Origin: an uncultured Oscillospiraceae bacterium
Lineage (GTDB): Bacteria; Bacillota; Clostridia; Oscillospirales; Oscillospiraceae
Assembly (NCBI GenBank): GCA_947599875.1
Contig: CANQFV010000001.1
Coordinates: 124,001-188,000, forward strand
Direction of reading: 5' to 3'
DNA: 64,000 nucleotides
Of the stretch, positions 2,275 to 63,450 are shown one piece after another. The number at the start of each line of letters is the position of its first letter. Within the stretch, counting starts at the first letter, position 1. The notes beneath the pieces are model-generated. The model was not told the origin of the DNA. It did not search any database and saw only the letters and a list, made by a program, of their open reading frames with translations. Made by a program: the position numbers and the translations under genes.

Positions 2275-2532
2275 CCCCCAATCCAAATATTTTTTCCGGC
2301 GGCATGTACGTCGGAAAAAATCCCTCTTGCCGCGCAAACGTGCGCCCTTGGGCGTGCGCTGCAGCGCGGCAGCAGAAAGACCCGGCGTGAATTCCTCAGA
2401 ATTCACGCCGGGTCTTTCGCACGTCCTTCTTGGGATTGAAAGCCCAAGGGGGTTTCAATCCAGCCTTCGTCCCCCTTGGCAGAAAAAGGATTTTGGGTTC
2501 TCGTCAGAGAACCCAAAATCCTTTTTCGCCAG
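2275..2532 (+). repeat. Four-hairpin element, copy A
   Basis: This copy sets the forward orientation. H1 is at 2290-2320: a T6 run, the arms CCGGCG/CGTCGG around a CATGTA centre, then an A6 run. H2 is at 2329-2370: GCCGCGC...GCGCGGC enclosing the GTGCGCCC-type inner hairpin. H3 is at 2375-2418: arms meeting in GAATTC-ctca-GAATTC. H4 is at 2483-2526: two perfect 20-nt arms meeting in GGTTCTC-gtca-GAGAACC. An extra weak hairpin (TTGAAAGCC...) lies between H3 and H4 at about 2438-2463. The element occupies the gap after the kinase gene. It ends about 70 bases before the next start codon. Confidence 0.9.
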
Positions 2533-2600
2533 ATGGCCCAGATGACTTTTTTCCTTTTCTCCCTCATATACTCTTGAAGACACGATCCGGGGGTGAGGAT

Positions 2601-3932
2601 ATGCAGGGGAAGAGACTTGCGGCCAATACGGCACTGACTACGCTGGCCGCGCTGTTTACGCAGGCACTGGGGCTGTGGTTCCAGTCCATGCTGGCCAAGC
2701 GCATGGGTGCGGCGGGGCTGGGCCTGATGGGCCTGATCACGTCCGTGGGGTCCCTGGCGGCAACCTTTGCCATATCCGGCATACGCTTTGCCTCCACAAG
2801 ACTTGTGGCGGAGGAGATGGGCCTTGGCCGGATGGGCCGGATCCCCCCGCTCATCCGCCGCTGCCTGCTCTACGCCCTTCTATGCGGGGGCCTGGCAGGC
2901 GGAGCTTTGCGGCTGTGCGCGGACAGCGTGGCCGCCCACCTTTTGGGGGATGTCCGGGCCGCCCTGGCCCTGAAGATCCTCTCCCTCGGGATGCCGTTCC
3001 TGTCCGCCGGGGCGGTGCTGGGGGGCTACTTCACCGGCACCTGCCGGGCGGGGATGGCCTTGGGCGGGCCGCTGAGCGAGGAGACCGTCCGCGTGGCCGT
3101 CACCTTTCTGATCCTCTCCTTAACGGGCAGCACGGATCCGCGCCTGACCTGCGCCGCCGCGGCGGCGGGCAGCGCATCCGGGGAGCTGGCGTCCTTTTTG
3201 GTGATGGCCATCCTCTACCTTGCGGACAAAAAGCGGCCCAGACCGGATCGGCCCTCCCCGCCGGGACAGCTGCGGCGCATCGTCACCGTGGCGGTGCCGC
3301 TGGCCTTCACCGCCTACGCCAGAGTCGCGGTAAAGACCCTCCAGCAGCTGCTGATCCCCCTTGGCCTCACAAAAAGCGGCGCCACGGCGGAGAAGGCGCT
3401 GGCCGGTTACGGCACGGTGCGGGGCATGGCCATGCCCGTGATCACCTTCCCGATGGTGCTTTTCTCCTCCGTGTCGGAGCTGATCGTCCCGGAGCTGACG
3501 GAGGAGCAGATGCGGGGGAACCTGGAGGGCATCCGCCACTGGGCCAGGGCGCTGCTGCGCTTTACGATGGGCCTGTCCACGGCGGCGGCGCTATTCGTGC
3601 TGTGTTTTTCCAAAAAATTAGGGGCCGTGCTGTTCTCCAGCGCCCCGGCGGGCAAATATATCGCCCTCCTGGCGCCCCTTATGCCGGTGATGTACCTGGA
3701 CAACGTGACGGACGGGATGCTCCGGGGCCTGGGGGAGCATATGTACACAATGGGCCTGAATTTGGTGGACTCCCTTGTCTCCACCACGGCCATGTGGTTC
3801 ATCCTGCCCCGGTTTGCCCTGGACGGGTATATCGCCATTTTGTACCTCTCGGAGATCTTCAACTTCATCCTGAGCATCAAGAGACTGGCGGATGTGACGG
3901 GGGAGAGACTCCCCGCCCGGGCAAATATGTAG
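2601..3932 (+). CDS. MATE/SpoVB-like polysaccharide flippase-type membrane protein
   Basis: The 443-residue protein is almost wholly hydrophobic, with about 12 to 14 predicted membrane segments, and resembles the MVF/MATE superfamily, in particular the SpoVB/YtgP-type lipid-linked sugar flippases of Firmicutes. The N-terminus KRLAANTALTTLAALFTQALGLWFQ and the mid-protein TVRGMAMPVITFP region fit that group. An open frame extends upstream into the repeat element, but ATG 2601 is preferred because GGGGTGAGG lies just upstream and the hydrophobic N-terminus starts there. A strong terminator follows directly. The transported substrate cannot be read from the sequence; a role in cortex or cell-wall precursor export is inferred from the family. 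Confidence 0.75.
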   Translation: MQGKRLAANTALTTLAALFTQALGLWFQSMLAKRMGAAGLGLMGLITSVGSLAATFAISGIRFASTRLVAEEMGLGRMGRIPPLIRRCLLYALLCGGLAGGALRLCADSVAAHLLGDVRAALALKILSLGMPFLSAGAVLGGYFTGTCRAGMALGGPLSEETVRVAVTFLILSLTGSTDPRLTCAAAAAGSASGELASFLVMAILYLADKKRPRPDRPSPPGQLRRIVTVAVPLAFTAYARVAVKTLQQLLIPLGLTKSGATAEKALAGYGTVRGMAMPVITFPMVLFSSVSELIVPELTEEQMRGNLEGIRHWARALLRFTMGLSTAAALFVLCFSKKLGAVLFSSAPAGKYIALLAPLMPVMYLDNVTDGMLRGLGEHMYTMGLNLVDSLVSTTAMWFILPRFALDGYIAILYLSEIFNFILSIKRLADVTGERLPARANM

Positions 3933-3958
3933 CGGAGGGTTCGCCCTCCGCTTTTTTG
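3931..3958 (+). terminator. Intrinsic terminator
   Basis: AGCGGAGGG-ttcg-CCCTCCGCT followed by a T-run. It begins inside the stop codon of the flippase gene and also faces the 3' end of the convergent DUF378 gene, so it may serve both. Confidence 0.9.
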
Positions 3959-4171
3959 TCAGGAATTTTCCTTGGATTCGATTCTGTCGCGGAAAAGCAG
4001 GGAGATGCACCACAGCGCCGAAAGGGCCACCAGGGTGTACACCACACGGCTGATCGAGGCCGTCTGTCCGCCAAAGAGGTACGCGACAAGATCAAATTTG
4101 AAGATGCCCACAAGCCCCCAGTTCAGTCCACCGATAATCAGGAGGACAAGGGCGATCCTATCCATAATCAT
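3959..4171 (-). CDS. DUF378 family small membrane protein
   Basis: This 70-residue protein has two hydrophobic segments (about residues 5-25 and 38-60). It carries the DUF378 hallmark LLIIGGLNWGLVGI followed by a phenylalanine-rich short loop and a second helix with a charged C-terminal tail (FRDRIESKENS). AGGAGG sits nine bases before ATG 4171, which fixes the start. The family (YuzA-like) has no established function. It is a single-gene unit convergent with the flippase and divergent from the dipeptidase gene. Confidence 0.85.
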   Translation of the reverse strand: MIMDRIALVLLIIGGLNWGLVGIFKFDLVAYLFGGQTASISRVVYTLVALSALWCISLLFRDRIESKENS

Positions 4172-4254
4172 AGCGTGAAGCCTCCTTTTTTGTTGCGCTG
4201 TTAATATAACCGGAGGTCTTCCTTTTTATGCGCGGATTTTTTCTTGCAGAGAAA

Positions 4255-4283
4255 TTGCATTCAGCGCCAATATGCAGTATAAT
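4255..4283 (+). promoter_or_regulatory. SigA-type promoter for the dipeptidase gene
   Basis: TTGCAT at 4255-4260 and a perfect TATAAT at 4278-4283 are separated by 17 bases. Transcription would begin about 25 bases before the dipeptidase start codon. Confidence 0.75.
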
Positions 4284-4315
4284 ATCTTGCGAAAAAAATG
4301 AACGGGAGGATCTGT

Positions 4316-5290
4316 ATGAGGATCGTTGACCTTCACTGCGACACCATAGAACAGCTGTATGAGGGGCGCAGCCTGGACGGGCTGGAAAATTCTCACATCA
4401 ACTTGGAGAAGCTCCGGCAGGGGGAGACCCTGGCCCAGTGCTTCGCCATTTTTGTGCCCACCCACGACGCCGCCGCCCGCCACGGGATCCGGGAGGACGC
4501 CTTCGGGTATTTTCAGCGGGCGTATGACGCCTACAGGCGGGAACTGACCGTCTGCGCCGAAAAACTGGCCCCGGCCCTGACCGTGGCGGACATCTTGAAA
4601 AACGAGTCCCAGGGCAAGGTCAGCGCCATCCTGACGGTGGAGGACGGCGTCACTCTGGACGGGAAGATCGAGAACGTGGACGAGTACGGCAAAAAGGGCG
4701 TGCGCATGGTGGCGCTCACCTGGAACTATGAAAACTCCCTGGGCTACCCCCAGAGCGCCGACCCGGAGAAGCACGCCCTGGGTCTGAAGCCCTTCGGGAA
4801 GGACTGCGTGCGCCGGATGAACGAGCTGGGCATCGCCGTGGACGTGTCCCATTTGAGCGAGGGGGGCTTCTGGGACGTGGCCCGGACAAGCACAAAGCCC
4901 TTTATCGCCTCCCACTCCTGCTGCCGGGCGCTGTGCGACATCGGCCGGAACCTGACGGATCAGCAGCTCAGGGCCGTGGCGGAGTCCGGCGGCGTGGTGG
5001 GCCTGAATTACTGCAACGTCTTCCTCCACCCGGTGGCGGACAGGGAGGACAGATTCACCGCCATATCGGAGCTTCTGCGCCACCTGACCCACATGATCGA
5101 CGTGGCGGGGACGGATAGCGTGGCCCTGGGCTCGGATTATGACGGCATCGGCTCCGTCCTGGAGTGGGGCGACGTCTCCGGCCAGCAGAAGCTGGTTCAG
5201 GCCATCGTGAGCCGGTTCGGCTTTGACACGGCGGAGAAGATCACCCACAAAAACGCCCTGCGCGCCTTCCGGGACATCTGGGGCGCCTGA
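4316..5290 (+). CDS. Peptidase M19 (membrane/renal dipeptidase family)
   Basis: The 324-residue protein is a binuclear zinc dipeptidase of family M19, which cleaves a range of dipeptides. Metal-site motifs are visible: VDLHCDT at the N-terminus (His7 and Asp9), LTVEDG (bridging Glu), VDVSHLSEGG and IASHSCCRAL (His ligands), and GSDYDGI near the C-terminus. An earlier in-frame ATG exists at 4298, but GGGAGG precedes ATG 4316 at normal spacing and the HxD motif sits at its family position from there. There is no signal peptide, so the bacterial enzyme is probably cytoplasmic. It is transcribed alone from its own promoter. Confidence 0.92.
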   Translation: MRIVDLHCDTIEQLYEGRSLDGLENSHINLEKLRQGETLAQCFAIFVPTHDAAARHGIREDAFGYFQRAYDAYRRELTVCAEKLAPALTVADILKNESQGKVSAILTVEDGVTLDGKIENVDEYGKKGVRMVALTWNYENSLGYPQSADPEKHALGLKPFGKDCVRRMNELGIAVDVSHLSEGGFWDVARTSTKPFIASHSCCRALCDIGRNLTDQQLRAVAESGGVVGLNYCNVFLHPVADREDRFTAISELLRHLTHMIDVAGTDSVALGSDYDGIGSVLEWGDVSGQQKLVQAIVSRFGFDTAEKITHKNALRAFRDIWGA

Positions 5291-5293
5291 GGG

Positions 5294-6538: not shown

Positions 6539-6576
6539 GGGGAACCTCCTGCAAAAATGGGGCTTTGGTTGACATA

Positions 6577-6708: not shown

Positions 6709-6759
6709 AGAAAAAGTCGGGCGGCGACAGTTTTTTCGCTGCCCGATGTGGAGGAAGGA

Positions 6760-7996: not shown

Positions 7997-8407
7997 ATGA
8001 ATGTGGCAGTGCGGTATTACACCAGATCCGGCAACACCAAAAAGCTGGCTGACGCCATCGCCCGGCGTTTGGGGACGCAGGCGGAGAGCGTGGAGAAGGG
8101 CCTTTTGGAGCGGGCGGACATCCTCTTCCTGGGCTGTTCGTATTACGCCTTTGACGTGGACGACGCCGTCAAGGAATTCATCCGGGAGAACAAGTGGAAC
8201 ATCGGCAGGATCGCCCTGTTCGGCACCTCCGCCATGATGCGGTCTGTGTATAAACCGGTGAAAAAGGTGTGCGACGAGGTGGGGGTCCAGCTTCTGACCG
8301 ACGAATTCCACTGCCGCGGCCAGTTCTGGAAGGCGCACCCCGGCCGCCCCAATGAGGAGGACTGCCGGAACGCCGCCGATTTTGCCGGTAAGGTCGCCGG
8401 CCTGTAA
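7997..8407 (+). CDS. Small flavodoxin-like protein
   Basis: The 136-residue protein begins with a beta strand followed by the FMN phosphate-binding loop TRSGNTKKLADAIA, typical of flavodoxins. LFLGCSYYAFDVDDAVKEFI and IALFGTSAMM correspond to the later strands around the isoalloxazine ring. AAAGGAGG precedes ATG 7997. It lies 47 bases after the CHR pair on the same strand and before ohrR, which suggests a redox or stress role. The electron partner is not identifiable. Confidence 0.82.
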   Translation: MNVAVRYYTRSGNTKKLADAIARRLGTQAESVEKGLLERADILFLGCSYYAFDVDDAVKEFIRENKWNIGRIALFGTSAMMRSVYKPVKKVCDEVGVQLLTDEFHCRGQFWKAHPGRPNEEDCRNAADFAGKVAGL

Positions 8408-8486
8408 ACGTCTGATCTCACGATTTTGGGAGCAAAGCCCCGATGGGGGTTCCAAATACACACGCGTATAACATATGGAGGAAAAC

Positions 8487-8930
8487 ATGGAAGACAAAAA
8501 ATACGAAGTTCTGAAGCTGGAGAACCAGCTGTGCTTCCCGCTGTACGCAAGCTCAAGGGAAGTCATCAAGCGCTACAAGCCCTTTCTTGACGAGATCAAC
8601 CTGACCTACACCCAGTACATCACCATGATGGTTCTGTGGGAGCGCCGCCAGGTCAACGTCAAGGAGCTTGGCGAATGTCTCCGCCTGGATTCCGGAACGC
8701 TCACCCCGCTTCTCAAGAAGATGGAGTCCAAGGGGCTTGTCACCCGCCAGCGCTCTGATAAGGACGAGCGGAATCTCATCGTCACCATCACGGAGAAGGG
8801 CCTGGCCCTCCGGGAAAAGGCGGTGGATATCCCCGCGAAGATCGCCTCCTGTACCGGCCTTAACCATGAGGAGGGCGTCACCCTCTACATGCTTCTTCAT
8901 AAGCTTATCGGCGAAAATACGGAAGAGTAA
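8487..8930 (+). CDS. ohrR: OhrR-type MarR family peroxide-sensing repressor
   Basis: This 147-residue winged-helix protein has the N-terminal LENQLCFPLYASSRE motif almost identical to OhrR of Bacillus subtilis, whose single cysteine (Cys15; here residue 16) is oxidised by organic hydroperoxides and releases the repressor from DNA. The recognition region LDSGTLTPLLKKMESKGLV and wing RSDKDERNLIVTIT also match OhrR. GGAGG precedes ATG 8487; an ATG 12 bases upstream is less well placed. No ohr gene is adjacent, so its target may be the flavodoxin region or lie elsewhere. A four-hairpin element begins three bases after the stop. Confidence 0.9.
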   Translation: MEDKKYEVLKLENQLCFPLYASSREVIKRYKPFLDEINLTYTQYITMMVLWERRQVNVKELGECLRLDSGTLTPLLKKMESKGLVTRQRSDKDERNLIVTITEKGLALREKAVDIPAKIASCTGLNHEEGVTLYMLLHKLIGENTEE

Positions 8931-8933
8931 TTA

Positions 8934-9150
8934 CTGGCGAAAAAGGATTTGGGGTTCTCTGACGAGAACCCCAAATCCTTTTTCTGCCAAGGGGAAACGT
9001 GCGGAAACACCCCATCGAATTCTGCGGAATTCGATGGGGTGTTTCCTGCTGCCGCGCTGTGCGACCAGTCTGCGGACTGGTCACTTGCGCGGCAAGAGGG
9101 ATTTTTTCCGACGTACATGCCGCCGGAAAAAATATTTGGATTAGGGGGAC
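8934..9150 (-). repeat. Four-hairpin element, copy B
   Basis: This copy is inverted relative to copy A. H4 is at 8940-8983 (20-nt arms around loop tgac). H3 is at 9003-9046 (arms GGAAACACCCCATC/GATGGGGTGTTTCC around GAATTC-tgcg-GAATTC). H2 is at 9051-9093, with the inner hairpin GACCAGTC-tgcg-GACTGGTC in place of the GTGCGCCC type. H1 is at 9102-9132, with the same arm version as copy A. H4 lies right after the ohrR stop and ends in a T5 run, so it could terminate ohrR. Confidence 0.9.
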
Positions 9151-9605
9151 GCGGGGCGGGGGATTTCCATCTCTTGAGGAGGTGGGACAAAGGGGACGGT
9201 TCTTCTGTCACATCGGAGCAAAGCGGAGATGGGACTAAAGAACCGTCCCCGTGTCACACCGGCTTCCCGGTGATGCACGACCAACCATCTGCCGTGCCCC
9301 ACAGGGGACGGTTCTTGTGAACCACCTCCGCTGCGCTGCGGTGTCCCACAAAAACCGTCCCCGTGAGGCAATGATAACGCTCTATCTTCGATACCTGAGG
9401 AGGCGGTTCAACAGGGACGGTTCTTCGTGGGGCACGGGGGACCTCACGCAATCGTGATTGCGTGGGGAGAGGCGGAGCGAAGTCTGCGAGTGAGCCGCGC
9501 CGCTTGCGGCGCGGGGAGCTATCGCGACTTTAAGCGACAACGATGACTCACAAAAACCGTCCCTTTGGGACGCCGGTTTCCCGTAGACGTCGCAGGCGTT
9601 TACGT
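9151..9605. repeat. Nest of REP-like pairs and a CACGCAAT hairpin element
   Basis: Three inverted pairs of GGGACGGTTCTT/AAGAACCGTCCC-type cores are seen at 9192-9250, 9304-9362 and 9414-9563. Inside the third lies a second family at 9446-9545: a CACGCAATCGTGATTGCGTG palindrome followed by a GC-rich stem (GCCGCGCC-gctt-GGCGCGGG type) and GCGACTTTAAGC. The segment 9180-9430 is nearly identical to 16608-16862, so one is a copy of the other. Open frames here are made of repeat sequence and are not genes. Confidence 0.85.
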
Positions 9606-9815
9606 CCCCCAATCCAAACATTTTTTGCGGGGCTTTGCCTCGCAAAAAATCCCTCTTGCCGCGCAAACGTGCGCCCTTGGGCGTGCGCTGCAGCGCGGCA
9701 GCAGGGAATATGCCCATGAATTCCGCAGAATTCATGGGCATATTCCCGCACGTCCCCCTTGGCAGAAGAAGGGTTTCGTGTTCTCTTCAGAGAACACGAA
9801 ACCCTTCTTCGCCAG
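9606..9815 (+). repeat. Four-hairpin element, copy C
   Basis: H1 is at 9621-9649 with a different arm version (GCGGGGC-ttt-GCCTCGC) between T6 and A6 runs. H2 is at 9658-9699 with the GTGCGCCC-type inner hairpin. H3 is at 9704-9747 (arms GGGAATATGCCCAT and complement around GAATTC-cgca-GAATTC). H4 is at 9765-9810 (21-nt arms around ttca). It points towards copy B, and its last base touches the stop codon of the convergent AEC gene. Confidence 0.9.
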
Positions 9816-9816
9816 C

Positions 9817-10755
9817 TTAGAACATTCCCATTGCTTTAAACGCCGCGATAAAGAGAAACACCGAAAGGATGCTCCCGGCGGTGGTGAGGGCCACGATCTC
9901 CCCGGCCAGGACGCCGTTGCCCCCCAGGGACTGGGCCATCGGCGCGGAGGCCACCGCGGTGGGGGAGGCGAACACCGCCAAAAGGGCCACAAGCGTCTCA
10001 TCCCGGAACCCCAGTGCCGCCATTATGCCCAGGCACACCACCGGCACCGCCACAAGGCGGCAGAAGACGGCGGCCAGGAGCCGGCCCTTGTGGCTCACCA
10101 TGCTCTTAAAGGACAGCATCCCGCCCAGAACAACCAGCGCCAGGGGGGAGGCGATATCCCCCAGGGTGTTCAGCGGCTCATAGAGCAGCCCCGGCAGCTT
10201 CAGCCCCGATAGATTCACCGCGGCCCCCAGGATCCCCGCGTCCACCAGGGGATTTTTGACGATCTGCCAGAGCAGCTTTTTCCAGCTGATGCGCCCGCCC
10301 CGCTGGATCTCAAAGACCACCACGGCCAGAATGTTGAAAAGCGGCACCACCAGCACCGCCAGGGCCGCCGTCACGGCCGTCCCCGCCTCCCCGGCCAGGG
10401 AATAGCTGATGACCGTGCCGAACAGCACATAGTTGCTCCGGGCGATGCCCTGGGCCACGGTGGGGATGTCCGGCCCCTGGGGAATGGTCTTCCGGCAGAC
10501 GAGCAGAGCCACGGCAAACGTGGCGGTGACAAGCGCTGCCGTCCAGAAAAACAGCTTCCCGTCCACGGCAGACCCCAGGTCGGCCCCGTAGATATCAAAA
10601 AACAGGGAGATTGGGATCATCACCTTGAAGATGAAGGAGTTCATCTCCAAAAGCGTCTCCCGCTTCAAAATCCCAAGTCCCCGCACCAAGCCCCCCACTG
10701 CCATATAGATCACCAGGGGCGCCACCACCTGAAAGGCGATTTGAAAATGTTCCAT
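9817..10755 (-). CDS. AEC family (auxin efflux carrier-type) permease
   Basis: This 312-residue membrane protein has about ten hydrophobic segments in two repeats, as in the AEC family of bile/auxin-type permeases that move small organic acids. Recognisable stretches are MNSFIFKVMIPISLFFDIY in the first repeat and LAVFASPTAVASAPMAQSLGG near the C-terminus, the conserved crossover region with its serine/proline cluster. The start at ATG 10755 lies two bases after the esterase stop codon, so it is translationally coupled to it. The upstream esterase hints at a carboxylic acid substrate released by hydrolysis, which is inference only. Confidence 0.85.
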   Translation of the reverse strand: MEHFQIAFQVVAPLVIYMAVGGLVRGLGILKRETLLEMNSFIFKVMIPISLFFDIYGADLGSAVDGKLFFWTAALVTATFAVALLVCRKTIPQGPDIPTVAQGIARSNYVLFGTVISYSLAGEAGTAVTAALAVLVVPLFNILAVVVFEIQRGGRISWKKLLWQIVKNPLVDAGILGAAVNLSGLKLPGLLYEPLNTLGDIASPLALVVLGGMLSFKSMVSHKGRLLAAVFCRLVAVPVVCLGIMAALGFRDETLVALLAVFASPTAVASAPMAQSLGGNGVLAGEIVALTTAGSILSVFLFIAAFKAMGMF

Positions 10756-10757
10756 AC

Positions 10758-11639
10758 TCAATTTCCAATAAAGCGCCGGAAAAAGGCGCACTCGTCGTCG
10801 TTGCAGATCTTGGCCGCCTGCGTCTTCACATCGCAGTGAAAGACGTGCCCCAGCCGCTCCACGCTGTCTCCGTAGAGATGAAGCTCAAAGGGCACGCAGG
10901 CCCGCGTCAGCCGCCGGGCCATCAGCAGGGCGTCCTCCTGAAGGAAATCCCCGGTGCTTGTCATCAAAAAGGTGGGCGGGAAATCGCCCGTCACATACCG
11001 GAGGGCGTCCACAAGGGCAAACTCCGCCTTTGTCCCGCCGCCGGGCAGGACTTCCCCCATAAGCCCGGCCGTGGGGGCGCCCTTGGGGCGTGCGTGGTGG
11101 TAGGCCCCGCAGTTCAGGGCCACGGCCCTGGGGGCAAAGCCGTCAGGCGGGGAGAAGGCGTACCTCCTGGCATACGCCGGGTTTGTGCAGAGCTGACAAA
11201 ACAGCGTCAGAATGTGCCCGCCTGCGGAGTCCCCCACGGCAAAGACGTGCCGGGGATCAAACCCGTAACGCTCCGCGTTGTCCAGTACCCAGCGGAAGAC
11301 AAGTACGGTATCCTCTAAGCTCGCGGGGAATTTTGCCTCCGGCGCCAGGCGGTAGGTGAAATTCACCACCGCAAAGCCCCGCAGGGCCAGATCCATACAG
11401 TAAAACTGGTAGGTCTCCTTTGTGCCGTAGACCCAGCCGCCCCCGTGGACGCTGACGATCACCGGCAGCGGCGCCGCCCCGGCCGCCCTCGGCCTATACA
11501 CGTCCAGGATCTCCATGCCGTCCGGCCCGTAGGGGATGTTGTCAAACCGGCGTATCCCCTCCGGCGTCGTAAGGCCCGCGTCCCGCCTATCGTCGCTGGC
11601 CTTGAAATCCCGGCGGATCTTGTCTGTCTCAGCGGACAT
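10758..11639 (-). CDS. Alpha/beta hydrolase, HSL-type carboxylesterase
   Basis: The 293-residue protein has the hormone-sensitive-lipase family signature VSVHGGGWVYG (oxyanion hole) and nucleophile elbow VGDSAGGHI. Candidate triad partners are in TSTGDFL (Asp) and RLGHVFHC (His). It lacks a signal peptide and should be a cytoplasmic esterase or deacetylase for short acyl esters. GGAGGGATAAGG precedes ATG 11639. It is the middle gene of a three-gene operon (YczE-like, esterase, AEC permease). Confidence 0.88.
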   Translation of the reverse strand: MSAETDKIRRDFKASDDRRDAGLTTPEGIRRFDNIPYGPDGMEILDVYRPRAAGAAPLPVIVSVHGGGWVYGTKETYQFYCMDLALRGFAVVNFTYRLAPEAKFPASLEDTVLVFRWVLDNAERYGFDPRHVFAVGDSAGGHILTLFCQLCTNPAYARRYAFSPPDGFAPRAVALNCGAYHHARPKGAPTAGLMGEVLPGGGTKAEFALVDALRYVTGDFPPTFLMTSTGDFLQEDALLMARRLTRACVPFELHLYGDSVERLGHVFHCDVKTQAAKICNDDECAFFRRFIGN

Positions 11640-16385: not shown

Positions 16386-16940
16386 CAAGGGAGAAATCTA
16401 TAAATGGTGGATCACAGAAACGAAAAACCGGTGTGACACGGGGACGGTTCCTTTCGCCGTCGCAAAAGCCGCTTAACCTGGCCGTCACGCGAGCGTGACG
16501 GCCAGGCGCGGGCTTTGCTCCTCCCCCCACGCAATTGTGATTGCGTGGGGCCCCGTGACAAAAACTTTCCCTCAGTCCCGCCTTTCACGAAGGAACTTCC
16601 CGTCTTTTGAGGAGGTGGGACAGCGGGGACGGTTTCTTTGTACCACCAGTGCGCACACTGGTGTGACTAAGGAACCGTCCCCGTGTCACACCGGCTCCCC
16701 GGTGATGCACGACGAACCATCTGCCGTGCCCCACAGGGGACGGTTCTTGTGAACCACCTCCGCTGCGCTGCGGTGTCCCACAAAAACCGTCCCCGTGAGG
16801 CAATGAACCCACCCAGTTATCGATTTCTGAGGAGGCGGTTCAACAGGGACGGTTCTTCGTGGGGCACAAATGTGACTCACAAGAACCGTCCCTTTGGGAC
16901 GCCGGCTTCCCGTAGACGTCGCAGGCCCCGCCCCGCACCC
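16386..16940. repeat. Nest of REP-like pairs and a CACGCAAT hairpin element
   Basis: From left to right: a single GGGGACGGTTCC core at about 16440, joined to the CACGCAAT-type hairpin element up to about 16560 (palindromic GGCCGTCACG-cga-GCGTGACGGCC, then CACGCAATTGTGATTGCGTG). Inverted GGGACGGTTCTT pairs follow at 16625-16682, 16736-16794 and 16846-16892. The stretch 16608-16862 nearly duplicates 9180-9430. No gene is visible in the block. Confidence 0.85.
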
Positions 16941-17213
16941 CCCATCCAAACATTTTTTCCAAGGACATGTGCCTTGGAAAAAATCCCTCTTGCCGCGCAA
17001 GTGACCAGTCCGCAGACTGGTCGCACAGCGCGGCAGCAGGGGATATGACCATGAATTCTGCAGAATTCATGGTCATGTCCCCGCACGTCCCCCTTGGCAT
17101 TGAAAGGCCGCAGGGGCTTACCACCAGGGTAGGGAAGGCGCGGAAAGCCCCCGCGCCAGAAGATCCCCGTGGCCTTTCAAGCCAACTTAAACCCCTGCGG
17201 CCTTTCAAGCCAG
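16941..17213 (+). repeat. Four-hairpin element, copy D (H4 replaced)
   Basis: H1 is at 16953-16983 (arms CCAAGG/CCTTGG). H2 is at 16992-17034 with the GACCAGTC inner hairpin. H3 is at 17039-17082 (arms with one G-T wobble around GAATTC-tgca-GAATTC). H4 is absent. In its place a 17-nt inverted repeat TTGAAAGGCCGCAGGGG (17100-17116, complement at 17192-17208) encloses about 75 bases. A similar GAAAGGCCG...CGGCCTTCC unit is inserted in copy E. Confidence 0.88.
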
Positions 17214-21443: not shown

Positions 21444-21520
21444 CGGGGTGTGGCGAAGCTTGGTATCGCGCTTGGTTCGGGACCAAGAGGCCGCGGGTTC
21501 AAATCCCGCCACTCCGACCA
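21444..21520 (+). tRNA. tRNA-Pro (anticodon CGG)
   Basis: A 77-nt cloverleaf. The acceptor stem CGGGGTG pairs with CACTCCG (one G-T). The anticodon arm is CTTGG-TTCGGGA-CCAAG, giving anticodon CGG. The T arm is GCGGG-TTCAAAT-CCCGC, and the CCA end is encoded. It has its own strong promoter. The first hairpin of a repeat element begins within ten bases of the CCA and ends in a T-rich run, so it probably acts as the terminator. Confidence 0.96.
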
Positions 21521-21524: not shown

Positions 21525-21886
21525 CTGGCGAAAAAGGGTTAAGGGTTCTCTTTAGAGAACCCTTAACTCTTTTTCTGCCAAGGGGGACGGAGGCTGGCAT
21601 GAAAGGCCGAAGAGCTTTGCTGGCGGGGGTAGATTTACGCACCTTTCCGAGCTTTTGCGTAACCCCTGCGGCCTTCCAATGCCAAAGGGAACGAGAGCTG
21701 GGTTGAAAGCCCTTTGGGCTTTCAATCCCAAGGGGAAACGTGCGAGCCCCCCGGCGTGAATTTAAGCGGAATTCACGCCGGGGGTTTCTGCTGCCGCGCA
21801 AGCGCACGCCCAAGGGCGCACGCTTGCGCGGCAAGAGGGATTTTTTCCAAGGCACATGTCCTTGGAAAAAATATTTTGATTGGGGG
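21525..21886 (-). repeat. Four-hairpin element, copy E (enlarged)
   Basis: H4 is at 21531-21574 (20-nt arms, one G-T wobble, loop ttta). About 130 extra bases with a GAAAGGCCG...CGGCCTTCC unit and a TTGAAAGCCC hairpin (21703-21725) follow. H3 is at 21746-21784 (CCCCCGGCGTGAATT core). H2 is at 21793-21832, whose inner part is paired almost throughout (GCCGCGCAAGCG.../...CGCTTGCGCGGC), a longer version of the GTGCGCCC type. H1 is at 21841-21871 with the CCAAGG arm version. It directly follows tRNA-Pro. Confidence 0.88.
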
Positions 21887-22974
21887 ATGCGTCACCGGGA
21901 AGCCGGTGTGACGCGGGGACGGTTCTTTAGTCCCACCTGCGGTGTGACAAAAGAACCGTCCCCGCTGTCCCACCTCCTCAAATGAAAGAAAAAAGAGCGT
22001 TTCCATTCATTCAATCTGTAGGGGCCGATGACCTCATCGGCCCGGGTGGGTTGGGAGACAAAGCGGTTGCGTTAAGACGGAAAGCTTTAAATTTGCCGTA
22101 GGGGCCGCCATTGCCTCACGGGGACGGTTCTTTTCGTTGTCGCGAAAGCCGCTTAACCTCGCCGCGAAGCCTGCGTGACGGCTCAGGCGCGGGCTTTGCT
22201 CCTCCTCTCCCCACGCAATCACGATTGCGTGGGGCCCCTGTGAAAAAAACGTCCCTCAAGTCCCGCCTTTTACGGGGGAACATCCCGTCTTCTGAGGAGG
22301 TGGGACAGCGGGGACGGTTCTTTCGTCACATCGGAGCAAAGCGGAGATGGGACTAAAGAACCGTCCCCGTGTCACACCGGCTTCCCTGTGATGCACGACC
22401 CCGTCTTTCCCGTCCCCTTTGTTCCACCTCCTCAAAGGGACGAAAAAGGGCGATACCCCCAATTCAATATGTACGGGCCGCCGCCCACGGCGGCCCGCGT
22501 CGTTTGAGCTGCGTTGAATCGTTAATTGGTGGTAATCGAAACACGGGCCGACGAGGTCGTCGGCCCCTACATACAAATGTCGTTGATTCGGACAATGATG
22601 CAAAATCGAGGGGCGGGCCACCAAGAAAGGCGGTCCCTACAGTCTGTAAGAGCCCCCCTGTAGGGGCCGATGACCTCATCGGCCCGGGTGGGTTGGGAGA
22701 CAGAGCGGTTGCGTTAAGATGGAAAACTTTAAAATTTGCCGTAGGGGCCGCCGCCCACGGCGGCCCGTGTCGCGATGATTGAGGGCCGCCATTGCCTCAC
22801 GGGGAGGGGGCCCCACGCAATCGTGATTGCGTGGGGAGAGGAGGAGCAAAGCCCGCGCCTGAGCCGTCACGCTGGCGTGGCGGCGAGGTTAAGCGGCTTT
22901 CGCGACGACGAAAAGAACCGTCCCTCTGTAACGCCGGGTGAAAGCCCCAATCAACAAAAAATCCCCGACCCGCA
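21887..22974. repeat. Composite repeat block (REP-like pairs, CACGCAAT elements, TAGGGGCCG hairpins)
   Basis: REP-like inverted pairs lie at 21915-21963 and 22310-22368. CACGCAAT-type hairpin elements lie at 22120-22240 and, inverted, at 22800-22926. TAGGGGCCGATGA...TCATCGGCCC units with the same 80-base tail (GGTGGGTTGGGAGACA...) are at 22018-22105 and 22660-22772. Shorter hairpins of the GGGCCGNCG type lie at 22471-22502, 22543-22572 and 22613-22640. The block is bounded by copies E and F, whose H4 ends face outward. No plausible gene is present. Confidence 0.82.
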
Positions 22975-23188
22975 TCCCTCAATTCCAATATTTTTTCCAA
23001 GGACATGTGCCTTGGAAATAATCCCTTATGCCGCGCAAGTGACCAGTCCGCAGACTGGTCGCACAGCGCGGCAGCAGAAAGACCCATCGTGAATTCCGCA
23101 GAATTCACGATGGGTCTTTCGCACGTTCCCCTTGGCAGAAAAAGGCCGTGAAGGTTCTCGTAAGAGAACCTTCACGGCCTTTTTCGCC
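22975..23188 (+). repeat. Four-hairpin element, copy F
   Basis: H1 is at 22991-23021 (CCAAGG arms). H2 is at 23030-23072 (GACCAGTC inner hairpin). H3 is at 23077-23120 (GAAAGACCCATCGT arms around GAATTC-cgca-GAATTC). H4 is at 23139-23184 (21-nt perfect arms around gtaa). The H1-H2 linker is the CCCTTATG form, shared with copies G and H. It ends a few bases from the stop of the convergent lipoprotein gene. Confidence 0.9.
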
Positions 23189-23192
23189 AGCC

Positions 23193-23654
23193 TTAATGTA
23201 TTCCCCCCACGGCGTCCGGCAGCCGTTCGGGGTCGCCCACCGCCAGAAGGACGGTGTTGCCCACCCGGTCGATGACGGCGGCCTCCAGACTTGGCACGGC
23301 GGCAGGGGAGTAGGATCGGGCATTTTCCAGCAGGCTCTCCACCCGCGTGCGGCATGCCTCCTCGGCCTTGATGGCGGAGGCCTCGTCCTTCATCACAAAT
23401 ACCGTGACCTCGTCGGCGCTGACGGCCGTATTGGCGGCCAGGCTTCCGGCGCAGGCCAGAACGCTGTCCGGATCCAGCCCGTAGAGGGAGATCAGGGCGG
23501 CGCTGTCAACCGTGAACATATCCCCGGAAAACACTCCGGTTTCCAATAGCGCCTCCACGTCGGAGATATCGTAGGGGGTGGACACGATCTTCCCGCATCC
23601 GGACAGGAACACGGCCACGGAGAGGATAATGGCCGCCGCTGACAGTACTCTCAT
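23193..23654 (-). CDS. DUF4358 family lipoprotein
   Basis: The 153-residue protein starts with a lipoprotein signal peptide ending in LSGC (MRVLSAAAIILSVAVFLSGCGK), so it should be lipid-anchored outside the membrane. The rest matches DUF4358: an acidic start (DISDVEALLETG), LYGLDPDSVLACAGSLAANTAVSADEVTVF, and KAEEACRTRVESLLENARSYSP. ATG 23654 lies one base after the SGNH hydrolase stop, so the two are co-translated. The function is unknown. The pairing with an SGNH hydrolase suggests a shared role at the cell surface. Confidence 0.82.
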   Translation of the reverse strand: MRVLSAAAIILSVAVFLSGCGKIVSTPYDISDVEALLETGVFSGDMFTVDSAALISLYGLDPDSVLACAGSLAANTAVSADEVTVFVMKDEASAIKAEEACRTRVESLLENARSYSPAAVPSLEAAVIDRVGNTVLLAVGDPERLPDAVGGIH

Positions 23655-23655
23655 G

Positions 23656-24822
23656 TTATTCGTCCTCGCTTCCTTGATTTCTGGCGGAGAAATACGCCTC
23701 CGGATCCAAAACGTGCGTGCGCAGGTAATCCGCCCACCTGCCGTAGCCCTTTGAGGTGAAGTGTACCCCATCTGCGGTCAGCTCACTGGGGAGTTGTCCG
23801 TCCGGCCCCCGGTAGACGCTGGCCGTATCCAGCAGGGCGACGCGCTTCTCCTTTGCCAGCCTTACGATGACCTCATTGAAGTTGTCCACATACTCCGTGC
23901 GCTCCCACTCGTTGCCGTACTCCTCGGCCTTCTCGTCGTTGATGGGCGGCATGGTCTGGAGGTAGATGACGGCGTTGGGCTGAGCGGCGATGATGCTGTC
24001 CAGCAGAATTCCCAGGCCCCGCTCGTATTCCTTCGGCGTGTACCCCAGCTCGTTGATGCCCAGCATCAGGTACACGGCGCTGTAGCTCTTTTCCGCCAGC
24101 GTCCCCACCAGCGAGACCTCTTTCCCGTTCACCGTGAAATATTTCCGGTTCTCATCCACGGCGCGAAAGACGTTCATCCCCCGCTTCCAGTAGAAATCCC
24201 CGTTGTGCAGCCCGCTGAACAGCTGTAATCCCTCGGTGCGGGAGTCCCCTAAAAAGACGGCGTTATCAAAGAAGGTGTCGTCCACCCGTTCACTCTCCGG
24301 TACGGCCTTCCCGAACTCATAGACGGTCTTGCCGGACGTGCCGATCTCCTCAGGCGGCGTGTAGGGCGTCTGCTCCTGAGCCGGCGTCTGCTCCTGCTTT
24401 GTGGAGGAATCGGGATCCTCCGGCTTCGTCCCGTCCTCCGCCGGGGGCTGATTTGCGGTTGGATCCTGCCCCTCCTGGGGATTTTGCTCCACAGGCTCCT
24501 GCTCATCGGGCTTCTGCTCCTGGGGCGGCTCCTCATCTGTTTTTTGCTCCTCGCCCGGGTTTTGCTCCGGGGAGGGATCCGCTTTATCCGGCCCCTCCGG
24601 GGCGGAGGGTGTGCCGGAGCCGTCGTCCGGCGGCTGAGTGTCCTCCGGGGACAGGGCGGATACCTGCGGCGACAGCCGGTCTTTCAAATACAGCGCCCCC
24701 AATAAAAGCGTCGCCCCAATGGCCGCCGTCAGCAGGACGTCAAAAACCGTCCGAATGACCCTCCAGACGGAGCTTACATGCCCCCGCCGCTGTCTGTCGT
24801 TACCCCGCTCCCTGTCCAACAT
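23656..24822 (-). CDS. Membrane-anchored SGNH/GDSL hydrolase with Pro/Glu-rich linker
   Basis: The 388-residue protein has a basic cytoplasmic N-terminus and one membrane helix (about residues 24-46). About 110 residues of low-complexity Pro/Glu/Gln linker follow (repeats of the EQNPGEEQKTDEEPPQEQ kind). The C-terminal domain is of the SGNH type: block I FLGDSRTEGL, LMLGINELGY and DGVHFTSKGY with the catalytic Asp/His pair. Such proteins commonly act on acetylated wall polymers or glycans, placed away from the membrane by the linker. GGGAGGCGG precedes ATG 24822. The linker is likely length-variable between strains. Confidence 0.87.
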   Translation of the reverse strand: MLDRERGNDRQRRGHVSSVWRVIRTVFDVLLTAAIGATLLLGALYLKDRLSPQVSALSPEDTQPPDDGSGTPSAPEGPDKADPSPEQNPGEEQKTDEEPPQEQKPDEQEPVEQNPQEGQDPTANQPPAEDGTKPEDPDSSTKQEQTPAQEQTPYTPPEEIGTSGKTVYEFGKAVPESERVDDTFFDNAVFLGDSRTEGLQLFSGLHNGDFYWKRGMNVFRAVDENRKYFTVNGKEVSLVGTLAEKSYSAVYLMLGINELGYTPKEYERGLGILLDSIIAAQPNAVIYLQTMPPINDEKAEEYGNEWERTEYVDNFNEVIVRLAKEKRVALLDTASVYRGPDGQLPSELTADGVHFTSKGYGRWADYLRTHVLDPEAYFSARNQGSEDE

Positions 24823-24914: not shown

Positions 24915-25027
24915 ACTGGCATTGGACGGCTGCCTTCCGATGCCAATTGGATGCGTGCGGAAATGTGGGCGTGAATTTGAACGGAATTCACGCCCACACG
25001 TCCTGCAAAAAATTGAATTGGGGGATA
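24915..25027 (-). repeat. Decayed four-hairpin element
   Basis: A remnant in the inverted orientation. A CTGGCATTGG...CCGATGCCAA pair stands where H4 would be. An intact H3 follows at 24965-24997 (GTGGGCGTGAATT and its complement), then GCAAAAAATTGAATTGGGGGATA matching the outer half of H1. H2 is deleted. It lies seven bases downstream of the trpA stop. The rest of the 24823-25033 gap shows only the upstream region of the SGNH gene. Confidence 0.7.
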
Positions 25028-25033
25028 ACTGCC

Positions 25034-25804
25034 CTATCTCAGCGCGTCCTTCATAGCCTTGACCGCCTCGCCCACATATTTTGGCGCGTCGGCGCCGTAC
25101 TGCTCAAAAAGCCGCACAAGGGCGGAGCCAACAATGGCCCCGTCGGAGAGGGCCGCCATACTCCGTGCCTGCTCCGGCGTGGAGATGCCAAAGCCGATGG
25201 CGCAGGGGACGCGGGTGTTCTCCCGGATGACCTTCACGATGGACGCAAGGTCGGTGGTGATCTGGCTTCTCATCCCCGTGACCCCCAGGGAGGACACCAG
25301 GTAGATAAAGCCTTCCGCCTCCCGGGCGATCATAGCGACGCGATTTTCCGAGGTTGGCGCGATCAGTGAGATCAGATCCACCCCGTATTCCCGGCAAACC
25401 GGGGCAAATTCCCCCTTCTCCTCAAAGGGCAGATCCGGCAGGATCAGCCCGTCGATGCCCGTCTCCCGGCAGGCGGCCATGAACCGCTGCGCCCCGTAGG
25501 AGAAGACCACATTGGCGTATGTCATAAACACCAGCGGCACCGTCACGTCCCGGCGCAGCTCCCGCACAAGCTGAAAGATCTTATCCGTGGTGACGCCCCC
25601 GCGCAGGGCGCGGAGATTGGCGCTCTGGATCACCGGCCCCTCGGCGGTGGGATCGGAGAAGGGGATCCCCAGCTCGATAAGATCCGCCCCGGCGTTGGCG
25701 CAGGCCCGGACGGCCCTGGCCGTGGTTTCCAGATCCGGATCCCCGCAGGTGACAAAGGGGATAAAGGCCTTCCCGTTTTGAAAGGCCCGGGCCGTATTAC
25801 TCAT
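25034..25804 (-). CDS. trpA: Tryptophan synthase alpha chain
   Basis: The 256-residue TIM-barrel subunit cleaves indole-3-glycerol phosphate to indole and glyceraldehyde 3-phosphate. The general acid Glu49 of E. coli TrpA corresponds to Glu44 in [10 protein letters not shown]. The second catalytic residue, Asp60, is replaced by Glu55 ([10 protein letters not shown]). The phosphate-binding loop near the C-terminus is present ([19 protein letters not shown]). The start overlaps trpB by eight bases, and it is the last gene of the operon. The Asp-to-Glu change is conservative, and the enzyme is probably active. Confidence 0.96.
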
Positions 25805-60119: not shown

Positions 60120-60172
60120 AAAATTTGCTGCCGGAAAGCCTCAAGGACTTTTCCCCGCAAACACAAGGAGAG

Positions 60173-60208: not shown

Positions 60209-60228
60209 CAGTTTATCAAATAACTCAA

Positions 60229-60435
60229 TCAATTTCAATATTTTTTGCGGGGCTTTGCCTCGCAAAAAATCCCTTATGCCGCGCAAACGTGCGCCCTTGG
60301 GCGTGCGCTGCAGCGCGGCAGCAGGGAACCCCGGCGTGAATTTCGCAAAATTCACGCCGGAGTTCCCGCACGCATCCCCTTGGCAGGAAAAGGACATTGG
60401 GTTCTCGTCTGAGAACCCAATGTCCTTTTCCGCCA
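60229..60435 (+). repeat. Four-hairpin element, copy G
   Basis: H1 is at 60241-60269 (GCGGGGC arms, as copy C). H2 is at 60278-60319 (GTGCGCCC inner hairpin). H3 is at 60324-60367 (core GAATTtcgcAAATTC-like, arms CCCCGGCGT). H4 is at 60386-60431 (21-nt perfect arms around gtct). It separates ispH-S1 from the ispD promoter. Confidence 0.9.
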
Positions 60436-60464
60436 GTCTGTGTTTGGAGAGAGCGGGGAAAGGC

Positions 60465-60493
60465 TTGACAAACGCCTCGGGGGAGAATATGCT
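60465..60493 (+). promoter_or_regulatory. Promoter of ispDF
   Basis: TTGACA at 60465-60470 and TATGCT at 60488-60493 with a 17-base spacer, starting 30 bases after the repeat element. Confidence 0.65.
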
Positions 60494-60579
60494 AAAAGGC
60501 GGCGGGGTGCTGCTCCGCCGTCACACATCAAGGGTCTACTTTCTGATAAAAACGCGTATACTTTGCGGGAGGTGGAAGA

Positions 60580-61326: not shown

Positions 61327-61793
61327 GGATCGGGCACGGGTACGATGTGCATGTGCTGACCCCGGGGCGGAGGCTTGTGCTGTGCGGTGTGGAGATCCCC
61401 TGTGAGCTGGGGCTTTTGGGACACTCGGACGCCGACGCGGCCACCCACGCCCTGATGGACGCCCTCCTGGGCGCCGCGGGGCTGGGGGATATCGGCAAGC
61501 TCTTTCCCGACAGCGACGAGACATACCGGGACATCAGCAGCCTGAAGCTGCTGGACCGGGTCATGGATCTTCTGCATGACGCTATGCTTCAGGTGGGCAA
61601 CGCGGATATCACGATCGTGGCGCAAAAGCCCCGCCTTTCGGAATACACCCAGTCCATGCGCCAGTGTCTGGCCCAGCACCTGGAGGTGGGGCCGGAGCGG
61701 GTAAACGTGAAGGCCACCACGGAGGAGGGGCTGGGGCAGGTCAGTACCCTGGGCATCGCCGCCCACGCCGTGGTGCTTTTGGAGGAGCGCTGA
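61323..61793 (+). CDS. ispF: 2-C-methyl-D-erythritol 2,4-cyclodiphosphate synthase
   Basis: The 156-residue enzyme has the zinc motif GHGYDVH (Asp and His), LLGHSDADAATHALMDALLGA, GDIGKLFPDSD and KATTEEGLG. Together with IspD and IspH it covers three of the MEP steps, all within 4 kb. Confidence 0.98.
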   Translation: MRIGHGYDVHVLTPGRRLVLCGVEIPCELGLLGHSDADAATHALMDALLGAAGLGDIGKLFPDSDETYRDISSLKLLDRVMDLLHDAMLQVGNADITIVAQKPRLSEYTQSMRQCLAQHLEVGPERVNVKATTEEGLGQVSTLGIAAHAVVLLEER

Positions 61794-61821
61794 GGCCGCA
61801 CAAAAAAATAAACATTTCATC

Positions 61822-61876
61822 ACTCCCGGCATAGGATGTGTTGACCGCTTTTCGCGGTCGCCATATGTCCGGGAGT
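61822..61876 (+). promoter_or_regulatory. Two-tier hairpin between ispF and the DUF3343 gene
   Basis: The outer stem ACTCCCGGCATA (61822-61833) pairs with TATG-t-CCGGGAGT (61864-61876), with one bulged base. Inside is GACCGC-ttttc-GCGGTC (61843-61859), separated by an asymmetric internal loop (GGATGTGTT on one side, GCCA on the other). TCTCTTTG follows. It could be a terminator with a weak tail or a structured leader of the downstream pair. Confidence 0.6.
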
Positions 61877-61913
61877 TCTCTTTGTATATGACCACCGGAT
61901 GGGGAGGAGCTTT

Positions 61914-62165
61914 ATGGAAGTTTATCTCACTTGCCGGTCGCTGACTTACGCCCAGAGCGTGTCCCGCGCTCTCGGCGCGGTGAGTATCCGCAACATGATC
62001 GTCCGCACGCCGCAGAATATGTCCCGGGAGGGGTGCGGCTACGCGGTGAGGATAGGAAATTCAAGCCTGGACGCGGCCCTGGAGGCGCTGGACGCCCGAT
62101 ACCTTCCGCCCCGCAGGATCTACAGGGCAAGGCCCGGCGGGGGCTTTGAGGAGGTCGTCAGGTGA
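61914..62165 (+). CDS. DUF3343 family putative Se/S-carrier protein
   Basis: The 83-residue protein (VYLTCRSLTYAQSVSRALGAVSIRNMIVRTPQNMSREGCGYAVRIGNS) matches the short DUF3343 proteins, which have two conserved cysteines (here in LTCRS and EGCGYAV). They occur with cysteine desulfurases and selenium metabolism genes. A sulfur or selenium carrier role is an inference. GAGGAG precedes ATG 61914. It overlaps the next gene by four bases. Confidence 0.8.
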   Translation: MEVYLTCRSLTYAQSVSRALGAVSIRNMIVRTPQNMSREGCGYAVRIGNSSLDAALEALDARYLPPRRIYRARPGGGFEEVVR

Positions 62166-63325
62166 TCTATCTGGACAGCGCCGCCACCACTTTTTTAAAA
62201 CCGGCCTGCGTGGAGCAGGCTATGCGCCGCGCCCTCCACACCTGCTCCAGCCCAGGCCGGGGCGGGTACGAGAGCGCCATGACGGCGGCGGAGACCCTCT
62301 ATACCCTCCGGGAGAGGGCCGCGGATCTCTTTCATGTGCCGGAGCCGGAGCGTGTGACCGTGACCTTCAACGCCACGCACGGGCTGAATATCGCCATCCG
62401 CTCCCTGGCCGGGGCGGGATCCCGGGTGGTGGTCACGGGCTATGAGCATAACAGCGTCATCCGGCCGCTTACGGCCGTGGGGGCGGATGTGCGTGTGGCC
62501 GCCTCGCCCCTTTTTGACAGAGACGCGGCGGTGCGGGCCTTTAAGCTGGCCCTGGACGCCGGGGCGGACGCGGCGGTGGTGAACCACGTCTCCAACGTCT
62601 TCGGCTTTGAGCTGCCGGTATACGAGATCGCCTCCCTGTGCCGGAAGAGGGGCGTGCCGCTGATCGTGGACGCCTCCCAGTCGGCGGGGATACTGCCGGT
62701 GGATTACCGGGAGCTGGGGGCGGATTTTGTCGCCATGCCGGGGCACAAGGGGCTGTACGGCCCGCAGGGGACGGGACTGCTCCTCGTCTCCGGCAGGGCC
62801 GCGCCGCTTCTGGCCGGGGGCACCGGGTCGGACTCCAGAAGCCCGAGGATGCCGGACTTTCTCCCGGACAGGTTGGAGGCGGGCACCCACAACATGCCGG
62901 GGATCGCCGGTCTCTCGGCGGGAGTGGAGTTTGTCCGGAGGCTGGGGACGGAGAAGATCCGGAAAAGGGAGAGCGCCCTGATCTCCCGGCTCATCCGGGG
63001 ACTCTCCGCCGTGCCGGGGATCCGGGTCTTCGCCCCGCCGGAGGAGGGGAGGGGCGGCGTCGTCTCCTTCCAGCCGGATACGGTAGACCCCGAGGAGATC
63101 GGGCAGCGCCTGGGGGAGATGGGCTTTGCCGTGCGGGCGGGGCTTCACTGCTCGCCCCTGGCCCACGCCACGGCCGGGACCGTCCGCCGGGGCACCGTGC
63201 GGGTCAGCGTGTGCTATTTTAACGAGCCGGGGGAGATGGACGCCTTCACAGGGGCGGTGCTGAGTCTGTTGGAAAAGCCCTGCGGGCTTTTCCAACAAGG
63301 GGGAACGTGCGGGAAATCTCTCTGA
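62162..63325 (+). CDS. Class V aminotransferase, cysteine-desulfurase-like
   Basis: The 387-residue PLP enzyme has YLDSAATTFLKP at the N-terminus, the histidine of TGYEHNSVIRP, VDASQSAGILPVD, the PLP lysine in AMPGHKGLYGPQGTG and the active-site cysteine in RAGLHCSPLAH. This is the CsdA/SufS-type group II layout. With the DUF3343 carrier it may deliver sulfur or selenium. It starts with GTG over the upstream stop. The last residues (about 20, from LLEKPCGLFQQ) are encoded by the repeat element that follows, so the natural C-terminus has probably been altered by the insertion. Confidence 0.88.
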   Translation: MIYLDSAATTFLKPACVEQAMRRALHTCSSPGRGGYESAMTAAETLYTLRERAADLFHVPEPERVTVTFNATHGLNIAIRSLAGAGSRVVVTGYEHNSVIRPLTAVGADVRVAASPLFDRDAAVRAFKLALDAGADAAVVNHVSNVFGFELPVYEIASLCRKRGVPLIVDASQSAGILPVDYRELGADFVAMPGHKGLYGPQGTGLLLVSGRAAPLLAGGTGSDSRSPRMPDFLPDRLEAGTHNMPGIAGLSAGVEFVRRLGTEKIRKRESALISRLIRGLSAVPGIRVFAPPEEGRGGVVSFQPDTVDPEEIGQRLGEMGFAVRAGLHCSPLAHATAGTVRRGTVRVSVCYFNEPGEMDAFTGAVLSLLEKPCGLFQQGGTCGKSL

Positions 63326-63450
63326 ATTTTGCGAAATTCAGAGAGATTTCCCTGCCGCCGCGCTGTGCGACCAGTCTGCGGACTGGTCACTTGCGCGGCA
63401 TAAGGGATTTTTTGCAAGGCTATGTCCTTGCAAAAAATTTTTAAAATGGG
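63265..63450 (-). repeat. Four-hairpin element, copy H (overlaps the end of the aminotransferase gene)
   Basis: H4 is replaced by TTGGAAAAGCCC-tgc-GGGCTTTTCCAA (63269-63295). H3 is at 63311-63352 (GGGAAATCTCTCTGAATT arms). H2 is at 63357-63399 (GACCAGTC inner hairpin). H1 is at 63408-63437 (arms TTGCAAGG/CCTTGCAA, a fourth version). Its first 61 bases lie inside the reading frame of the aminotransferase. Confidence 0.88.

Follow-up and report, generated by a model that had tools for sequence, protein, structure and literature searches.

Four-hairpin repeats in an uncultured Oscillospiraceae genus: probable miniature transposons of an IS1182-type insertion sequence

The four-hairpin repeats scattered over a 64,000-nucleotide stretch of an uncultured Oscillospiraceae bacterium (assembly GCA_947599875.1, contig CANQFV010000001.1, positions 124,001 to 188,000; hereafter, the window) are probably a non-autonomous transposon of an IS1182-type insertion sequence (IS), that is, a miniature inverted-repeat transposable element (MITE) of about 205 nt whose copies seem to exchange whole hairpins. 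Each of the four hairpins, H1 to H4, is a module whose tip and base are conserved and whose paired arms vary. The genome containing the window is called here the source genome (G000); it and the other assemblies are draft metagenome-assembled genomes (MAGs).

Ends, targets and the probable IS1182-type partner

The left end of the element, CAG-N-TTGTCAAAAAACTC, is found in its exact 20-nt form in 21 of 34 genomes of one uncultured Oscillospiraceae genus. All 21 are among the 23 genomes where the element is detected by the covariance model R1 (described below), and the reversed pattern used as a control yields no matches. The element has no transposase gene, and its length is short and fixed, with a median of 205 nt from the left end to the target repeat (19 copies with the repeat). 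The terminal repeat CAG-N-YTGTCRAAAAA is common to the element and an IS; hence, in the TGTC form of the element (see below), the ends are those of an autonomous IS of the same genus, as in a MITE.

A direct repeat of at least 15 nt is present at both ends of 22 out of 226 element copies, compared to 0.35 expected per shuffle when the flanks are swapped. In 46 copies the left end is intact and the flanks are of sufficient length; a direct repeat begins at this end in 19 of them. The repeated target sequences vary from copy to copy, yet they form hairpins, with 9.4 paired bases on average vs 3.8 after shuffling. At the ilvC gene of the source genome, one element is nested in H4 of an older element, with GGCCGCAAAGCGGCC on both sides.

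Genes with the DDE_Tnp_1_6 domain (PF13751) were identified in 14 of the 34 genomes, in 13 of them over the cut-off. Five of the fifteen IS loci scanned contain a complete IS of 1.50–1.51 kb, which is bounded by CAG-YYTGTCAAAAAA ends and has a duplicated hairpin on its outer sides. Two transposases from such loci score 378.5 and 385.1 bits against the IS1182 equivalog NF033551, the cut-off being 270. Taken together, the common ends, the duplicated hairpin targets and the transposases scoring as IS1182 argue for a MITE of an IS1182-type IS, putatively mobilised by the transposase of the latter.

IS1272, a member of the IS1182 family, targets inverted repeats of differing sequence, often just downstream of genes; cruciform-dependent joining has been proposed for it, leading either to stem-loop replacement (pathway a) or to duplication of the whole stem-loop (pathway b), according to the consulted part of PMC5678879. 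By analogy, the IS1182 transposase would join the ends of our element at the feet of an extruded hairpin, in the structure-dependent transposition proposed for IS1272.

In locus L424, at about 1970–2050, a second insertion with a CAGTCTGTCGAA end is situated across the same duplicated hairpin from the complete IS, so that one target has received two insertions.

Several observations weigh against the assignment to an IS1182-type MITE. By the criterion used, 27 of the 46 intact-end copies have no direct repeat; many of these show a hairpin beside the end by eye. Common ends were not seen in ten of the fifteen scanned IS loci, and PF13751 has no matches in the source genome. Neither an intact left end nor a duplicated hairpin was seen at any of the nine window copies, and a duplication accompanies one of the 103 copies in the source genome. 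In most copies there the left flank is different and comprises about 60 conserved nucleotides beyond H1, often beside GGGACGGTTCTT repeats; it is a derived left end. The membership of the window copies in the putative MITE thus rests on the homology of H1–H3, not on the ends.

The conserved segment of about 60 nt to the left of H1 (ACGCCGGGTCAAGGCCTCCGGTCAACGGACAATCCCCCGTCCCGC..., e.g. in L001, L002 and L003) is present in most copies of the source genome and was not seen in other species.

The REP-like (repetitive extragenic palindrome) GGGACGGTTCTT repeats, clustered in intergenic regions, suggest another origin, a REP/BIME- or REPIN-like repeat moved by a REP-associated tyrosine (RAYT, Y1) transposase. 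A GTAG or CGTC tag at the foot of the hairpin is typical of such repeats. The source genome does have one Y1 transposase gene, and compensatory changes in hairpins have been reported for REPINs in the consulted part of PMC3116915. However, this gene is flanked by GGGACGGTTCTT repeats and contains them, while the 1.4 kb read around it has no four-hairpin element. The Y1 gene being tied to another repeat, we rejected its link with the element. Moreover, inverted terminal repeats and long duplications mark the element, whose ends are common to the IS1182-type IS. All this makes a REP-like origin highly improbable.

Distribution

The H3 core pattern has 156 matches in the source genome, 80 on one strand and 76 on the other, and none in the control. 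The covariance model R1 was built from 35 H3 or H3–H4 stretches of the source genome and also recovers the eight window copies described initially. It finds the element in 23 of the 34 genus members. G014 has a single weak match, and many others have at least dozens of copies, with about 106 candidates scored per genome. Under stricter filters, R1 has no matches in the 18 listed genomes from other genera of the family. Across 245 genomes of the order three match: the source genome, one more member of the genus (G015) and G070. The weak hits in the latter, an overlapping pair of 33 bits covering both strands of a single place, were discarded as chance matches.

In the pattern scan of the species collection, 91 of the 92 matches listed belong to MAGs of uncultured Oscillospiraceae that bear the name Lapin. 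The remaining match is cyanobacterial (L296); it was considered accidental and left out of the final counts. Lapin is French for rabbit, and we read the name as an indication of rabbit gut origin. In this genus, the elements explain a large share of intergenic hairpins.

Pairing and covariation

The covariation in H3 and H4 is real and strong. In the 35 aligned sequences, 26 of 44 base pairs of these hairpins have changes on both sides, and 264 cells are changed on both arms, compared to 69.9 (sd 6.6) in shuffled alignments and 35–51 in controls with the arms slid. The fraction of paired cells is 99.0%, vs 81.0% after shuffling and 38–62% with the arms slid by 1–3 columns, these percentages being subject to the lower-bound caution that the structure was derived from the same sequences. 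Folded as single-stranded DNA, the copy at 9606–9815 has the energy of −84 kcal/mol vs −31.6 (sd 3.3) in 200 shuffles. A chance origin of the fold is thus excluded.

The initial annotation, made from the window sequence, noted that the arms change while pairing is kept. This paired change, like the family itself and its hairpin order, holds in many species, and the search of relatives with the covariance model has produced many more copies. On the other hand, the pairing was said to be perfect or with one G-T, which is slightly overstated. Among 87 distinct H3 hairpins of the source genome, 42 are perfectly Watson–Crick over 18 bp, and 45 have at least one other pair. The non-Watson–Crick pairs are 26 G.T, 27 A.C and 14 others.

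Probable exchange of hairpins between copies

Swapping of whole hairpins among copies seems to be the main source of the differences between the arms. The ilvC 3' copies of two sister species, G011 and G047, have flanks identical in 57 of 60 columns, whereas H2 and H1 together agree only in 62 of 87, and the H3 arms are unrelated. Both arm alleles, or their one-base length variants, recur at other loci in both genomes. There are few arm alleles among the 18 pattern matches of G011, and likewise among the 13 matches of G047. In G011, ten matches have one and the same arm sequence, so the identical arms elsewhere that the initial annotation named as evidence against its view are observed in part. 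Different arms amid near-identical flanks, with the alleles present elsewhere in the genome, point to whole-hairpin exchange. Hypermutation of H3 alone is not needed, since the alleles are found at other loci. This argument is based only on ilvC, where the flanks agree; the orthology of the 14 gene sites common to genomes was not taken for granted, because genomes with more than 100 copies each will share some sites accidentally.

The second line of evidence comes from 219 full elements. The H3 arm difference per base pair is 0.39, 0.36, 0.40 and 0.46 for pairs of copies (not independent of each other) whose H1–H2 regions differ by 0.7, 3.5, 8.0 and 14.0%, respectively. Moreover, the H4 type in the source genome is independent of the types of H1, H2 and H3. 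As the H3 difference is unrelated to the H1–H2 distance and H4 is independent, modules appear to be passed among copies, for which ectopic gene conversion is the simplest explanation. However, the types of H1 and H2, as well as those of H1 and H3, are weakly linked (the observed value is reached in 2 and 4 of 500 shuffles, respectively), so the exchange is not free.

We suggest that ectopic recombination swaps whole hairpins and leaves the pairing intact, while new arm alleles would arise by slower paired substitutions. One such substitution is seen in G011, where a single T:A to G:C pair change separates the nearly identical copies L489 and L504, which have no differences at the 81 H1–H2 positions. 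The initial annotation offered two explanations, selection for the folded form or arm-to-arm copying; these are insufficient, given the exchange indicated at ilvC.

The second of these explanations is palindrome correction: template switching at the hairpin would keep the arms paired by copying one onto its partner, with no selection, so that arm changes result from mutation followed by correction. The above transversion on both arms is consistent with it, and so is the fraction of transitions, 25 of 46 among single-step allele pairs vs 125 of 164 among single-arm mismatches (source-genome and pattern loci). The nearly equal numbers of G.T and A.C mismatches in the source genome demonstrate the strand symmetry expected without selection on one RNA. 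However, this symmetry fails outside the source genome, with 47 G.T vs 25 A.C in the pattern loci (p 0.013). Unpaired states endure: all four exact GGGAAATTGCGCGTG copies read, from two species, retain a T.G, as do five of eight GGGCAATTTTCTCTG copies of G047, and H3 at glmS is imperfect in four species (G000, G005, G012, G044). Finally, alleles occurring at other places in each genome account for the whole-allele differences at ilvC. Hence we consider palindrome correction an unlikely explanation.

Pairing does not simply decay: it is perfect in 153 of 268 copies without the left end and in 17 of 45 copies with it, the former set consisting mostly of source-genome copies. The better pairing in copies without an intact left end speaks for its upkeep in resident copies, by conversion or by arm-to-arm copying, and disfavours selection acting only at transposition and followed by neutral decay.

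Two forms of the element and gene ends

The copies may be divided by the type of H4. Of the 63 TGTC-type copies, 20 have a duplication and 32 a hairpin immediately beyond H4; in 12, a stop codon lies no more than 7 nt away. In the TGGC type, with the right end GCCAG, the respective numbers are 2, 2 and 91 of 155 copies. The difference in the frequency of duplications is highly significant (Fisher test, 2e-10). Eight of the nine window copies have the TGGC/GCCAG form. For 101 of 183 copies, with H4 ends defined by pairing, the stop codon of an open frame lies at most 7 nt from H4, vs 5 of 197 in the control 300 nt away.

At the ilvC 3' ends, the element directly follows the stop codon in 10 of 26 readable cases, and 15 of the other 16 have a simple stem-loop at this place, as judged by eye. 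Sites occupied either by the element or by a simple stem-loop fit stem-loop replacement: the GCCAG form would take the place of the gene's own stem-loop, and its H4 would become the 3' hairpin of the gene, while copies ending with TGTC would duplicate the target stem-loop. We infer that the same transposase performs both reactions.

A tentative extension of this scheme, which we regard as possible rather than probable, is that one transposon family uses both predicted outcomes, and the terminal hairpin decides between them. The TGTC end would duplicate the target, and the GCCAG end would delete it and supply H4, the element being a parasite that swaps itself harmlessly for terminators. The internal hairpins would then form a pool of alleles recombining as units within each genome.

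The simple palindrome GGGCGGGTTYNNAACCCGCCC is found repeatedly after genes throughout the genus (L327, L330, L331, L338 and other ilvC 3' ends) and is also an IS target in L426.

The position of H4 directly behind stop codons could also be that of a structured RNA, an element of the 3' untranslated region whose hairpins act in the transcript as a terminator, stabiliser or regulator, with pairing selected at each locus. Several orthologous sites indeed retain the element across species. The excess of G.T over A.C outside the source genome is consistent with this possibility, as are 21 G.T vs 7 A.C pairs in the model-found loci (p 0.013), where, however, the covariance-model search itself favours G.T. 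On the other hand, mismatches in the source genome show no strand asymmetry, and the elements have no Rfam match: at the gathering threshold, the window yields only a tRNA. The terminator scan of 8400–10000 (4 found vs 2.0 expected) did not pick out H4 as a T-tailed hairpin. Further, copies at orthologous sites have lost H2, H3 or both (at ilvC in G001 and G002; at glmS in G002, G046 and G019), and these degraded copies speak against strong selection at each locus. An RNA function as the cause of the pairing is therefore rather improbable.

Copies in the window

The order H1–H2–H3–H4 is present in all eight stretches described initially. A ninth, more diverged copy was missed there, and three of the eight (at 2275, 16941 and 21525) carry extra hairpins or an insert between H3 and H4 or within H4. 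The copies at 2275, 9606, 16941, 22975 and 60229 are on the forward strand, and those at 8934, 21525 and 63265 are on the reverse strand.

The first copy (2275–2532) consists of H1 at 2290–2320, H2 at 2327–2371, H3 at 2375–2418 and a TGGC-type H4 at 2477–2531, with an additional hairpin seen by eye at about 2420–2465. In the second copy (8934–9150), H4 is at 8935–8989, H3 at 9003–9046, H2 at 9050–9095 and H1 at 9102–9132; H4 starts 4 nt past the stop codon of the open reading frame 8475–8930 (forward strand). The third copy (9606–9815) has H1 at 9621–9649, H2 at 9656–9700, H3 at 9704–9747 and H4 at 9760–9814, the end of H4 being 2 nt from the stop codon of the reverse-strand frame 9817–10791. 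The fourth (16941–17213) comprises H1 at 16953–16983, H2 at 16990–17035, H3 at 17039–17082 and H4 at 17095–17184 with an insert in the loop.

In the fifth copy (21525–21886), H4 at 21526–21580 is separated by one or more inserted modules from H3 at 21748–21784, followed by H2 at 21792–21834 and H1 at 21841–21871; H4 starts 5 nt past the tRNA-Pro gene (21444–21520). The sixth (22975–23190) has H1 at about 22991–23021 (by eye), H2 at 23028–23073, H3 at 23077–23120 and H4 at 23133–23189, ending 3 nt from the stop codon of the reverse-strand frame 23193–23771. The seventh is the newly found copy at 24915–25110 on the reverse strand (R1 score 50.3 bits, E 6.1e-10), with H4 at 24917–24945, H3 with one mismatch at 24959–25003 and H1 at 25079–25110.

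The eighth copy (60229–60437) contains H1 at 60241–60269, H2 at 60276–60320, H3 at 60324–60367 and H4 at 60381–60435; a remnant of the left terminal repeat, AGTTTATCAAATAACTCAA, is seen by eye at about 60210–60228. The ninth (63265–63450) has H4 at 63267–63297, H3 at 63311–63352, H2 at 63356–63401 and H1 at 63408–63437. Its H4 is of the TGTT type, TGTTGG...CCAACA, and lacks the GTTCTC tip; hence GTTCTC-N4-GAGAAC is not, as initially stated, the centre of every H4. This tip is a feature of H4s in the source genome, occurring in 40 of 103 copies there and in none of 123 copies from other genomes (copies whose H4 and two flanks could be read).

One more short module, TTGAAAGGCCGCAGGGG...CCCCTGCGGCCTTTCAA carrying an insert, is situated in or beside H4 at 17095–17184 and 21581–21700 and in many H4 loops of the source genome. 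Another dispersed repeat, inverted pairs of GGGACGGTTCTTTTGT, lies in clusters beside the elements at 2164–2250, 9167–9585, 16599–16926, 21888–21991, 22117–22400 and 22806–22946. The same repeat flanks the sole Y1 (RAYT-like) gene of the source genome (L076), one pair being inside the reading frame.

Relation to known systems

The initial annotation knew of no named element with this design. Indeed, none was found in Rfam at the gathering threshold or in the literature searched, but the ends and targets place the element with IS1182-type transposons. The IS of this genus exceeds the IS1182 cut-off, and the GCCAG form resembles replacement by IS1272, whereas the TGTC form resembles pathway b. 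Unlike the TGTC form, the reported new insertions of IS1272 replaced the stem-loop without duplication, and no MITE is described in the consulted part of that paper (PMC5678879).

Like REPINs, as characterised in the part of PMC3116915 that we used, the element is small mobile hairpin DNA with a high copy number, compensatory hairpin changes and free spacer sequence. However, REPINs are REP doublets tied to RAYT, whereas here there are four hairpins, inverted ends, hairpin targets and an IS1182-type partner. Prokaryotic MITEs and the BOX, RUP and SPRITE repeats are similar in being near 200 nt, rich in stem-loops, intergenic, clustered and nested, with terminator-like members. The consulted part of the review (PMC10969869) describes neither duplication of whole hairpins nor modular covarying arms, and IS1182 has zero occurrences in this review.

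If our assignment is correct, the genus would provide numerous natural cases in which an IS1182-type system has duplicated a whole stem-loop, an outcome that the IS1272 work only drew as possible. The presence of the duplicating form beside the replacement-like one makes the mechanism testable. More generally, strong covariation in a dispersed repeat need not imply a functional RNA, as hairpin exchange combined with hairpin-dependent mobility can yield the same signal.

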